Source: Candidatus Saccharimonadales bacterium
GTDB lineage: Bacteria; Patescibacteriota; Saccharimonadia; Saccharimonadales; Saccharimonadaceae
DNA: 64,000 nucleotides
Assembly (NCBI GenBank): GCA_039928925.1
Contig: JBDSSF010000004.1
Coordinates: 1 to 64,000 of the forward strand
Direction of reading: 5' to 3'
Every line of letters starts with the position of its first letter. Position 1 is the first letter of the stretch. The position numbers were made by a program, and so were the translations under genes. Of the stretch, positions 47,324 to 50,905 are shown piece by piece. The notes below the pieces were generated by a model. That model did not search any database, had not been told where the DNA came from, and saw nothing but the letters and a program-made list of their open reading frames with translations.

Positions 47324-47413
47324 AATTATATTCCTTGTGCTTGTTAGCTAAACACAATGGTTGATTGTACGCAAGTTTTTTAATTTTGTAAAATTTACCC
47401 CTGAAATCGGAAA

Positions 47414-47439
47414 AGCGGCCACCTTGTAGGGTGACCGCT
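47414..47439 (-). terminator. Terminator of the 47.5-kb lipoprotein gene
   Basis: Minus strand AGCGGTCACC-N6-GGTGGCCGCT (one G-T pair), then TTTT. Confidence 0.7.
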
Positions 47440-47505
47440 GCTCCCAGGGATTTCTCCTTGGTAAAGCATCTACCTTTTTTATCGAGTGTAGATCTCGAAC
47501 CTACC

Positions 47506-47982
47506 TCAGTTCGGCATGTAGCGGCCGCAGAGGGTCAGCGAGGTGATACCGGCATTCGCGAAGTTCTTCGTTGCCAGGTAGAACCCTGCGGGGTCCTTCG
47601 CATCTTCCGGTACGTTCACCGGAATGGTTTTGTTCACGATAGCCGAAACGGTCAACGGAGTCCCCTGGAAGGAGACCGTCATACCGAGCTTGCTTCTCGT
47701 GACAGTAATGTTGGTTCCGTCGAGTGTGACGGTACCGCCGATCGTCAGACGAGCTGTGGTGCCACTCTTGTCACAGCTCAGAACACCTCCGGTGCCCTTC
47801 ACCAGATAGGGCGTGTAGCCTTCCTGGGGAAAGAGCTCCATGGGACCGGCGACAACGGGTGTCGTCGAGACCTTGGAGGGGCTCGGGGCCGGTGCGCTCG
47901 AGTTCGACGAGCAACCGGAAACGAGCAGAATGATGATGGTGGCCACGCCTGCCATCAGGGGCACTGCGAGTTTTTTGCTCAC
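47506..47982 (-). CDS. Putative lipoprotein, GC-rich gene
   Basis: 158 aa with a lipoprotein signal (hydrophobic ~8-21, lipobox LVSGC with Cys ~24), a Ser/Pro/Ala linker (~25-45) and a beta-rich domain (~50-158: GGVLSCDKSGTTARLTIGG, TVTLDGTNITVT) with two more Cys that could form a disulfide. No family recognised. The gene is much richer in G+C than the core genes and starts with GTG. TTGACT (48012-48017) and CATAGT (47989-47994), 17 bp apart, end 6 nt before the GTG. Style of signal, linker and codons is actinobacterial. Confidence 0.75.
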   Translation of the reverse strand: MSKKLAVPLMAGVATIIILLVSGCSSNSSAPAPSPSKVSTTPVVAGPMELFPQEGYTPYLVKGTGGVLSCDKSGTTARLTIGGTVTLDGTNITVTRSKLGMTVSFQGTPLTVSAIVNKTIPVNVPEDAKDPAGFYLATKNFANAGITSLTLCGRYMPN

Positions 47983-47988
47983 TTGCGG

Positions 47989-48017
47989 ACTATGTCATAT
48001 TACGTATTATTAGTCAA
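47989..48017 (-). promoter_or_regulatory. Promoter of the 47.5-kb lipoprotein gene (leaderless GTG)
   Basis: TTGACT-17-CATAGT on the minus strand, 6 nt from GTG 47982. Confidence 0.55.
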
Positions 48018-48081
48018 TAATTTTTCTATGCTCCTACCGCAAAGTGGAATGTCATCATAATGTCATTAACTTTAAAAATGG

Positions 48082-48109
48082 AAAAACCGCCGTTCAAATC
48101 GAACGGCGG
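48082..48109 (-). terminator. Terminator of the 48.2-kb lipoprotein gene
   Basis: Minus strand CCGCCGTTC-N5-GAACGGCGG followed by TTTTT. Confidence 0.85.
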
Positions 48110-48168
48110 CGGTTCCCACCACAACAGAATTTAGCCTAAGGCTGCGGCTCTGTCATACCGCCTTGTGG

Positions 48169-48672
48169 CTACACGCTAGCTGCGCAAAGTGGCGATCCGA
48201 GGACCGACTTCACGTAGGGAGCGAGTTCATCCACGCTTCCGATTCCGATCATCTTGCCCGGATCGGAATCCAGGCGGTGGGCTATGATCACTGCCATGTG
48301 GCTGGGATCGACGGTCCCGGGTGTGACGACCATCACCAGGATGCACTTGGCACCGAGCGGGCCGACGCCGATGTACCCCTTGCTGAGGTACCGGTCCTTT
48401 GGTGCGAAGATGTCGTCTACGCCGAACGTCTTGGCGACGGAGTCCATGCCGGGCAGCTTTTCGCCGCTCGACAGGGTCTTGACCAGGTCGGTACCCGGAG
48501 GTACCTTGTCTGCCTGGACGAAGTCCGCGACGATGATCTTGTCTTTCGACTGCGGTACTGACGGCGACGGTGTCGCCGTTGTCGTGCTGCAGCCCGTCAC
48601 CAGGACGATGCTGAACAGCATGAGGGCGGCCACGCGCACCCTCGTAAAACTCCACTTGCGGGGGGTATTCAC
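48169..48672 (-). CDS. Putative lipoprotein, GC-rich gene
   Basis: 167 aa. A basic N-terminus (~1-13) and hydrophobic stretch (~14-26) end in the lipobox VTGC (Cys ~28), followed by a Thr/Ser/Pro linker and a folded domain (~45-167) with two Cys (~110, ~163). No family recognised. The gene is strongly GC-rich. GTG start, with TGA-TATAAT (48680-48685, minus strand) 7 nt before it, so the mRNA seems leaderless. It is a neighbour of a second GC-rich lipoprotein gene of similar build but unrelated sequence. Confidence 0.75.
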   Translation of the reverse strand: MNTPRKWSFTRVRVAALMLFSIVLVTGCSTTTATPSPSVPQSKDKIIVADFVQADKVPPGTDLVKTLSSGEKLPGMDSVAKTFGVDDIFAPKDRYLSKGYIGVGPLGAKCILVMVVTPGTVDPSHMAVIIAHRLDSDPGKMIGIGSVDELAPYVKSVLGSPLCAASV

Positions 48673-48679
48673 GATATAT

Positions 48680-48685
48680 ATTATA
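48680..48685 (-). promoter_or_regulatory. Extended -10 of the 48.2-kb lipoprotein gene
   Basis: TGA-TATAAT on the minus strand, 7 nt from GTG 48672. Confidence 0.55.
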
Positions 48686-48819
48686 TCACACTATTTATAT
48701 AAAAGCAATAAGATACCGCTATTGACGGTAGTATTACTACGCTGCATAATGATTTAAATCAGTCAGTTGAGTGGAGTAATTCAATCCTGACCGGTACTTT
48801 GACAGTTAGGTAATTATAA

Positions 48820-48870
48820 ACTCCGGTCTGATCTGCATTGAACGTGCTTCAAGATAGATCAGACCGGAGT
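48820..48870 (+). promoter_or_regulatory. 15-bp inverted repeat in the leader of the 48.9-kb gene
   Basis: ACTCCGGTCTGATCT (48820-48834) and AGATCAGACCGGAGT (48856-48870), perfect, 21-nt loop. TTGACA lies just upstream (48799-48804). It may be an operator or an mRNA-stabilising stem. Confidence 0.6.
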
Positions 48871-48905
48871 GAGAACACTTCGGCAGACAGAAAGAGGTAT
48901 CTTTT

Positions 48906-49430
48906 ATGTTCGTTTCGACCCGTACCACGCGCTCCGGTCCAAGCCCTCAAGGCCGAGGACGCAGTGCGCGTCTTGGCAGGCGAAGAAAGGTTGCGAGGAA
49001 CCGTACGGCGGGATTGCTCCTGGCGCTGGCGCTTGTCTTCGGCTTCCTGACGGTGTCCGCACCGGCAGCAAGCGCCTCGACGGTGACGATGAAGGCAGCA
49101 AGCATTCGCCCTCTCGCCGTCCTGTACTGGGACATCAACTACAAGGGGCACAGCAAGCTGCTGTCAGCCAGTCCCGATCAAGGCAACTGTGATTCGAGCG
49201 GGTACAAGCGTCGGTTCGCTGCTTTCGATGAAGAGCACCTGAACATCTCATCGATCGGCAAGCTCGCCGGCCCGGGTATCCGCTGCAACCACGTCATCGT
49301 GAACACGATGAACTACCTCGGACAGGTCGGCAGTGTGTGCTTCTCGGCAAGGCTGCCGGTAGCAAATGTGGGTAGCAAATGCAACGACGCGGTCGGTCAG
49401 ATCACGACATTCTTTGACGGGCAACTCTGA
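48906..49430 (+). CDS. Secreted Cys-rich protein, GC-rich gene (crystallin/inhibitor I36-like?)
   Basis: 174 aa. A long Arg-rich N-region (~1-35) precedes a signal core (~36-50) and a likely Ala-X-Ala cleavage near residue ~57. The mature part (~115 aa) has four Cys, enough for two disulfides, and the segment VLYWDINYKGHS, which looks like the start of a beta/gamma-crystallin Greek key as in the I36 inhibitor family. That resemblance is weak. The gene is very GC-rich, has AAAGAGG 8 nt before its ATG, a 15-bp leader stem, and a large downstream hairpin. An actinobacterial origin is plausible. Confidence 0.7.
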   Translation: MFVSTRTTRSGPSPQGRGRSARLGRRRKVARNRTAGLLLALALVFGFLTVSAPAASASTVTMKAASIRPLAVLYWDINYKGHSKLLSASPDQGNCDSSGYKRRFAAFDEEHLNISSIGKLAGPGIRCNHVIVNTMNYLGQVGSVCFSARLPVANVGSKCNDAVGQITTFFDGQL

Positions 49431-49537
49431 CCATAGCTGTGCCGAAGATGTTCGCCGATCGGTAGAAGATTCAGGATCGGCTTTAAGGCTGGTCTGCGTC
49501 AGCGAGAGCTGAAGTAGCGGCCCGAAATAGTCCTGAT

Positions 49538-49601
49538 CCATCCTCCTATGTAGAGCGAGTACCCTGCCAGGTAGTACTGGGTACTCGCTCTCGTAGGATG
49601 G
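49538..49601 (+). terminator. Large hairpin downstream of the secreted-protein gene
   Basis: Inner 13-bp perfect stem AGAGCGAGTACCC / GGGTACTCGCTCT (49552-49564, 49579-49591) and outer CCATCCT / AGGATGG (49538-49544, 49595-49601). No T run. Confidence 0.5.
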
Positions 49602-49706
49602 GTGACAACAGTGTACTACGGAGCGAGAAAGCCGGTTACGAAAGTGATGGATCTCGTCAATAAGCACGTATAATTACCTATCTGTCGATATTTTAATCGA
49701 TGACAT

Positions 49707-49729
49707 TTAACGCCAAGTGGCGTTTTTAT
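49707..49729 (+). terminator. Short rho-independent terminator
   Basis: AACGCC-aagt-GGCGTT then TTTT. Confidence 0.55.
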
Positions 49730-49841
49730 TTGTCACAGTTACTTTCGAAGTTAGTTGTTATGAGGCTATTATTTCCTTCAATCCTATAAAATGTCGCTCT
49801 AGTAATAGGAATAAATGCTCTTTTTGAAACGTTTAGCTGGG

Positions 49842-50330
49842 TTATTTTGATTTTACGAGTGGTCGTCCGTTTGTCTTTATGAGGAGTGATACGAGGAGCC
49901 CACTTACTGCGACGATACATATCGTAATAATTGTCATTAGGATAGGCTGATACAGAAACCATGACGGGACAAGACGCGTGGGCACTACGATGACTCCTAT
50001 GAATGCACCTAAAAGTCCAAAATAGCTTCCGAGCATAAATGCTTTATGCGCATTTATGTCGCCTCGACGCGCATTGTAAATACCAGCACAGATACTAAAA
50101 ATTGTCCAAAGCGCGAGCCCTCCTAGGAAAATATCTATTGGCTCATGTGTCTTAATGATAAATAAGCCGCTGATGGATACGAAGAGCATCATATAAGCCC
50201 ATATACGCCCGACTGCTCGGTGGATTGTATCACCTCTCACGGTTCTTATTGCGTTGAATGTGCCGAGGACGAGGGTAGATGTAGCGATGACCGCATGGAG
50301 CACGATAACAATAGTCCAGGGAGCATGCAT
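49842..50330 (-). CDS. DUF2306-like membrane protein
   Basis: 162-aa integral membrane protein with about five helices (~5-25, ~42-60, ~68-85, ~100-120, ~128-152). The pattern HRAVGRIWAYMM (~37-48) and NAHKAFMLGSYFG (~95-107), with paired His, matches the DUF2306 family as I recall it. Function unknown. Isolated gene. Confidence 0.75.
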   Translation of the reverse strand: MHAPWTIVIVLHAVIATSTLVLGTFNAIRTVRGDTIHRAVGRIWAYMMLFVSISGLFIIKTHEPIDIFLGGLALWTIFSICAGIYNARRGDINAHKAFMLGSYFGLLGAFIGVIVVPTRLVPSWFLYQPILMTIITICIVAVSGLLVSLLIKTNGRPLVKSK

Positions 50331-50587
50331 TATGTAGTAATGATATCATAGCCGTGCATCACAATAGACTATTAATTTGTAGAAAACCTGTCTCGTAAGT
50401 ATATGGTAAGCAATGATATATATTTGATCGAATAAAATATATTATTTATATAATGCTTTTGTTTTAAATACAATTGATTTACTTATCTGTTAGCAGTTCG
50501 TTCCATCTGACACATTAACATTGATTTTTATTATTATATGTGTCAGTAGGTATTGACTTAATACGAAATACGTGCTAATATGATAAA
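50331..50587. other. AT-rich gap
   Basis: Nothing recognisable except the promoter at its right end (50553-50581). Confidence 0.5.
50553..50581 (+). promoter_or_regulatory. Promoter of the 50.6-kb structured RNA
   Basis: TTGACT (50553-50558), 17 bp, TAATAT (50576-50581). Confidence 0.65.
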
Positions 50588-50833
50588 CGATTGATTGCTT
50601 CTGCGAGAACAATCAAACGCACCTTATACCCCCTATTCTAACTTATGTTAGGTTGTATGCAATGTGCTTACCAGTATCTACCCTCCACTGATAAGCCTAG
50701 AAAGCATTGCATATATACTAACCCCTTTCACCAGCGGATATCTGCGTTTACACGAGATGATCACGCCTGCCCCCGGGTGGGTGAAAGGGCAAAACGGCGC
50801 CAGGTGATGCCCACCCTTACCTGGCGCTTTTTT
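50588..50833 (+). ncRNA. Candidate structured non-coding RNA (~245 nt)
   Basis: Bounded by a good promoter and a strong terminator, without a credible ORF. Helices seen by eye: P1 TTGATTG/CAATCAA extended by TTCT/AGAA (50591-50616); P2 CTAAC/GTTAG (50638-50651); P3 TATGCAATG/CATTGCATA (50656-50664, 50705-50713) enclosing GCTTA/TAAGC and CAGT/ACTG (50666-50675, 50687-50696); P4 CCCTTTCACC/GGTGAAAGGG (50723-50732, 50780-50789); P5 is the terminator. It lacks the hallmark sequences of RNase P, tmRNA, SRP RNA or 6S RNA. The downstream gene has its own promoter, so this is probably a free RNA rather than a riboswitch. Confidence 0.65.
50797..50833 (+). terminator. Terminator of the structured RNA
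   Basis: GCGCCAGGT-N13-ACCTGGCGC perfect stem then six T. Confidence 0.92.
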
Positions 50834-50905
50834 GTTGGAATTTTTTATGGCGTATAATTTGTTTAACTGTCGATATAAATAAGTACTATCGAGTCTATTA
50901 GTTGT

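Follow-up and report, generated by a model that had tools for sequence, protein, structure and literature searches.

The segment between positions 50553 and 50833 of the window, as the whole 64-kb stretch of DNA analysed here is called, raises the question of whether it encodes a free-standing RNA, to which family such an RNA would belong and how it would act. An earlier note, made by reading the letters of the DNA, had proposed a structured RNA of about 245 nt and of unknown family, bounded by a promoter and a terminator and independent of its neighbours. The window is part of a host genome of 0.98 Mb that is 98.6% complete. Its host belongs to the Saccharibacteria (TM7 group), which are widespread, ultra-small and parasitic or episymbiotic bacteria with genomes of about 1 Mb.

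The promoter that had been claimed is present at the start of the segment (Table 1), and 109 of the 110 homologous upstream regions keep its TTGAC. When 50553-50833 is folded, it reaches -91 kcal/mol, against -60.9 +/- 4.8 for shuffled versions (z -6.3); none of 200 shuffles folds as well. Two covariance models, of which R1 covers the 5' half and R2 the 3' half, match the window at 50578-50731 and 50723-50841, respectively. Together with compensatory changes in homologues and a context that is independent of the neighbouring genes, the folding result bears out the proposal of a free-standing structured RNA of about 245 nt. As read from the sequence, the segment 50553-50834 is an independently transcribed gene for a folded non-coding RNA, with the transcript being predicted.

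Table 1. Elements of the RNA gene and their positions in the window.
Feature	Position	Strand	Basis
Sigma-70-type promoter TTGACT-17-TAATAT, extended -10 (TG)	50553..50581	+	Window sequence
Predicted transcript, ~245 nt	50588..50834	+	Start inferred 7 nt past the -10 box; end inferred at the P7 end
P1 hairpin, TTGATTG / CAATCAA	50591..50616	+	5 of 7 pairs changed on both sides, 45 homologues
S1, (nearly) invariant single strand CGCACCTTATACCCC; GCACCTAAATAA in divergent genera	50618..50632	+	Invariant alignment columns
P2 arm, CTAAC/GTTAG; loop lengthens into longer hairpins in other members	50638..50651	+	
P3 long-range helix	Strands 50654-50664 and 50705-50715	+	11 of 11 pairs with changes on both sides
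P3 apical hairpin bearing S2, loop CTACCCTCC at 50678-50686	50672..50690	+	3 of 4 pairs changed on both sides
P4 long-range helix, CCCTTTCACC / GGTGAAAGGG	Strands 50723-50732 and 50780-50789	+	98.6% of cells paired, many compensatory types, 111 RNAs
P5 inside P4, GCGGAT / ATC-A-CGC, one bulged A	50734..50766	+	98.1% paired, 3 pairs changed on both sides
GGGTGGG, probably pairing with the P7 loop as a pseudoknot	50775..50781	+	Loop complement in cis in 116 of 116 RNAs
P7 3' hairpin, invariant loop GATGCCCACCC (50806-50816); also intrinsic terminator in most members	50790..50834	+	

With regard to the family, none of those in Rfam 15 reaches its gathering threshold in the whole of the window. 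At E<=10 the RNA region gives a single chance match (13 bits, where the cut-off is 45), and at E<=5 there is no match in 18 diverse homologous loci. The Rfam scan suggested in the earlier note thus returns no known RNA in the window, the region or the homologous loci. The signatures of RNase P, tmRNA and 6S RNA had been said to be absent, and this agrees with what the genome contains: the true RNase P RNA (RF00010) is encoded at G000:C3:318838-319172 and the true tmRNA (RF00023) at G000:C3:320989-321396, so that the segment is neither of these, and no 6S RNA is matched in the window, the region (E<=10), the diverse homologues or the host genome. Identity with 6S RNA is rejected on the lack of an Rfam match and on the covariation-supported structure, which has separate 5' and 3' hairpins. 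Membership of the raiA motif (ModT) is likewise rejected, there being no Rfam raiA match in the window or in the 18 diverse loci. A literature search found no publication describing this RNA of the Saccharibacteria. The family is therefore unknown in a strong sense, in that homologues are widespread and yet none of Rfam's families matches. The segment almost certainly belongs to a real RNA family that is absent from Rfam, and this single-copy, order-wide family of the Saccharibacteria is most likely previously undescribed.

A search with the DNA alone found relatives in 38 of 61 related genomes. When a pattern of 22-25 bases from the most conserved strand was scanned over some 85,000 named prokaryote genomes, 98 stretches were returned, nearly all of them labelled Saccharibacteria or Saccharimonadia and including the isolate TM7i. 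Bins labelled Chloroflexi and Nomurabacteria (L033 and L088) also carry the RNA; these are probably mis-assigned contigs or labels. Among 119 collected loci, all those with enough flank also show, 185-440 nt downstream, the 3' loop in the form GATGCCCACCC or one close to it. The 5' strand and the 3' loop thus occur together, and both ends are therefore parts of one unit. R1 matches 165 and R2 matches 213 of 247 genomes from the order, with a single match per genome in practically every case; at least five of the listed genomes are matched by R1 but not by R2, which places the RNA in at least 218 of the 247. Of 380 Patescibacteria sampled evenly across the phylum, R2 matches 32 of 32 members of the order and 0 of 348 others, and R1 matches 23 of the 32 and none outside the order, although only five genomes in this sample come from other orders of the same class, so that the limit of the family within the class is drawn on a thin sample. 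The 5' half has diverged in genera g2, g10 and g11, where R1 matches it weakly but at the right place. Nearly every member of the order carries one copy of the RNA gene.

The covariance check that had been proposed supports P1, P3, P4, P5 and P7 through compensatory changes in homologues from independent lineages. Across an alignment of 45 5' halves, the paired cells amount to 95.1%, against 83.8% in shuffles, and both sides have changed in 19 of 27 pairs; for 43 aligned 3' halves the figures are 97.3% and 17 of 28. In both halves alike, covariation exceeds that of 500 of 500 shuffles and of all slid controls. Of the five helices originally described, it can be said that they are real and covarying, the long-range P3 and P4 included, but that the count was too low, as there are at least seven helical elements and a likely pseudoknot.

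S1, which follows P1, reads GCACCU(UAUACCCC) as RNA and is invariant or nearly so, although it is shortened in genera g2 and g11. A cis partner for it was sought within the RNAs, and none was found above chance. The CTAAC/GTTAG base of P2 is invariant in the aligned main-group set and the hairpin is extended in 27 main-group RNAs, while in the divergent genera P2 is re-sequenced and its pairing is kept. GTTAG could pair instead with the CTAAC at 50718-50722, past P3, and the energy model prefers that fold. The two pairings are mutually exclusive, which would leave room for a switch. At the tip of the P3 arm, the core of the S2 loop is ACCCTCC, nearly invariant, in the main group and ACCTCC in the divergent genera; written as RNA, the strand is UACC(C)UCCAC and (nearly) invariant. 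S2 has no conserved partner in cis, as the apparent excess in the main group is an AGGGTA within the paired 3' strand of P4 that is absent in the divergent genera.

The clearest covariation among the helices is that of P4 (CCCTTTAAC/GTTAAAGGG). In 111 RNAs its variants include AAC/GTT, GAC/GTC, GTC/GAC, ATC/GAT, CTCT/AGAG, CTAT/ATAG and GCC/GGC, as well as a matched one-base insertion on both strands; the window's own version is CAC/GTG. The interior of P4 holds the compact P5 in the window's group and elsewhere a longer 'type B' module, GACTATCCAGTAGTG...CAGGCGC...CGCTTC, which has the look of an RNA domain conserved in its own right, invariant bases included. Type B replaces P5 in L016, L019, L020, L022, L029, L111 and others.

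P7 has changes on both sides in all 6 of its outer pairs and in 3 of the 4 inner ones, and its 11-nt loop GAUGCCCACCC is invariant or nearly so. The pairing spans the A/U tracts and continues past them, and there are compensatory changes downstream of the U-tract, although a bidirectional terminator could contribute to the covariation there. The U-tract is kept in 86 of 99 members, and several of those that have lost it (L040, L046, L051, L062, L084, L090) have a second, ordinary terminator directly after P7. Because of this second terminator and of the covariation beyond the U-tract, P7 is best regarded as a structural element that usually terminates too. The '9-bp GC-rich terminator' of the earlier note is thus right as to termination in most members, but misses the structural character of the hairpin.

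A 6-nt complement of the P7 loop region is found in cis in 97 of 97 and 19 of 19 RNAs (116 of 116), compared with about 36-40% after shuffling, kinship being uncontrolled in both figures. Of 111 RNAs, 60 have an exact GGTGGG or GGGTGG immediately ahead of the 3' strand of P4, 27 have it within P4, 19 have it at both places and 5 at neither. It is supported but not proven that the CCCACC of the P7 loop docks on GGUGGG of the P4/P5 domain, forming a pseudoknot with a relocatable partner; the strands are complementary, but the loop varies too little to yield compensatory changes.

An outside partner is likely for S1 and S2, because both are unpaired, invariant or nearly so and without a conserved partner in cis. 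To judge from these features they probably bind something in trans, although they could instead make tertiary contacts that are invisible to pair analysis. The rRNA complementarity of S1-S4 in five genomes was not consistently above that of shuffled segments; 16S rRNA was not found in the window's own assembly, and that of relatives was used. Pairing of S1 with helix 45 of 16S rRNA (CGCACCUU with AAGGUGCG) is unsupported, since helix 45 of genome G158 is AAGCUGCG and S1 is unchanged there. In genera g2 and g11 (L184-L203) the S2 loop AUUACCUCC is identical to nine bases of the 16S 3' tail GGAUUACCUCC as read in five relatives outside these genera, and the main-group S2 has an extra C. The apparent likeness of S2 to the 16S 3' tail may serve as a lead only.

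This likeness bears on the idea that the RNA is an antisense small RNA acting in trans, with C-rich loops that would pair with Shine-Dalgarno or other G-rich sites in mRNAs, blocking or freeing translation. S1, S2 and the P7 loop are all conserved and C-rich, and the divergent S2 loop mimics the anti-Shine-Dalgarno sequence of the 16S tail. However, sequences complementary to S2 or to the P7 loop show no enrichment ahead of start codons, and Shine-Dalgarno targeting by either is rejected, as there is no enrichment at ribosome-binding sites. Among 418 ORF starts, from 97 loci and the window, a -10-like box stands 12-17 nt before the ATG in 123 and a Shine-Dalgarno-like motif is present in 45, which suggests that many saccharibacterial mRNAs are leaderless. 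The commoner -10 boxes, the extra C of the main-group S2, and a size and order-wide architecture beyond the needs of a seed RNA all make the antisense role doubtful. That the RNA replaces 6S RNA in function, binding RNA polymerase, is also unlikely. 6S RNA binds the RNA polymerase holoenzyme and templates pRNAs, and its hallmark is a long hairpin, paired at its ends and opened in the middle by a large bubble that mimics an open promoter. The Saccharibacteria RNA is comparable to 6S RNA (RF00013 and relatives) in its strong promoter, single copy and housekeeping size, in a genome where 6S itself has no match, but it lacks the closed, long irregular duplex with an open-promoter-like bubble and paired ends. 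Instead it consists of P1, the P3 arm, the P4 domain and P7, with P1 and P7 as separate hairpins at its ends, and the members scanned have no Rfam 6S score. A conserved core, exchangeable peripheral modules and a likely pseudoknot are also met with in large ribozymes, but a self-acting catalytic RNA is highly improbable here, given that there is no substrate or product and no resemblance to the ribozyme families of Rfam.

Explanations that tie the RNA to its neighbours have to contend with the gene order. In 85 of 97 loci dprA is the adjacent upstream gene, in divergent orientation, and a palindrome around the -35 position, TTGAC..GTCAA, is often common to the promoters of the RNA and dprA (60 of 100 loci with dprA) and could serve both genes. 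A cis element or locus-specific regulator of dprA, and so of natural transformation, working through this divergent promoter might be imagined, but the RNA is transcribed away from dprA and is kept where dprA has been lost. dprA has no match anywhere in the window's genome, in which the RNA is intact, and a few other lineages without dprA also retain the RNA; this persistence argues that the RNA is free-standing, and a role tied to dprA is correspondingly improbable. Downstream, the 97 loci have pth (19), transporter-like genes (10) and unrelated singletons, in dozens of unrelated clusters, about half of them on the opposite strand as counted on simple ORF calls. The terminator-like hairpin at the 3' end would suit the leader or riboswitch of a downstream gene; however, since the downstream genes vary, with no fixed same-strand association with one gene class, and P7 is kept even without its U-tract, this class is rejected and has next to no chance of being correct. 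The varied downstream gene and mixed orientation are as expected from the independence that the earlier note had claimed.

The reading preferred to these is that of an undescribed, single-copy and order-wide RNA with a housekeeping role in trans, as a regulator or a scaffold comparable to 6S or ModT, rather than the leader of an adjacent gene; as a whole it is rather probable. Its central element, a housekeeping RNA working in trans, is itself more probable than otherwise, and is inferred. In the proposed mechanism the strong sigma-70 promoter would give a stand-alone transcript of about 245-430 nt. Sequence comparison shows the RNA folding into P1, the arm P2, the long arm P3, which bears a C-rich loop at its tip, the P4 domain, whose interior can be exchanged for unrelated modules, and P7 at the end. 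With the putative P7 pseudoknot, the compact body may display the C-rich S1 and the S2 loop to a conserved trans partner, either a protein of transcription or translation or another RNA, and exchange of GUUAG between the two CUAAC strands may toggle the exposure of S1. A bolder and tentative version, to be viewed with some scepticism, would make this a core RNA of a new class of ribonucleoprotein or switchable regulator, pseudoknotted, with swappable modules and near-invariant strands (one copying the 16S tail in some genera), and controlling translation where many mRNAs are leaderless.

Among known RNAs, ModT/raiA and 6S are those that it resembles most, having a strong promoter, a stand-alone gene and a length of about 200-260 nt at its shortest. 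The raiA motif RNA, or ModT, is a stand-alone, abundant, conserved, structured and trans-acting RNA of about 215-260 nt, with its own housekeeping-sigma promoter and alternative terminators, from Bacillota and Actinomycetota (PMC11706538). The Saccharibacteria RNA is likewise structured and stand-alone by promoter and context, and some members have a second terminator; its failure to match raiA in Rfam sets it apart. RNase P RNA and tmRNA are of comparable size and likewise have a variable periphery around a fixed core, as well as pseudoknots, of which one is likely here too, but both of them have separate genes in the same genome. OLE, ROOL and GOLLD are longer RNAs. They are counted among the large ornate bacterial RNAs (PMC12286853), and are similar to the present RNA in their conserved core, ornate structure and poorly known function. 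Unlike them, it is tied to one order and is nearly universal there, and it has no Rfam match to any of the three. As almost every Saccharibacterium keeps the RNA, even after the loss of neighbouring genes, it is probably important to the cell. It adds a lineage-specific case to the few large conserved RNAs of bacteria with open function (OLE, raiA/ModT and others), and provides a concrete target for deletion in cultured strains such as TM7i.

A few observations concern the surroundings of the gene in the window itself. Where dprA would be expected, between topA and the RNA (47324-50552), there are small lipoprotein-like and other ORFs. The -35 region at this locus (50553-50567), from which dprA has been lost, reads TTGACTTAATACGAA. 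An inverted repeat, GAGCGAGTACCC...GGGTACTCGCTC, is present at 49552-49593.
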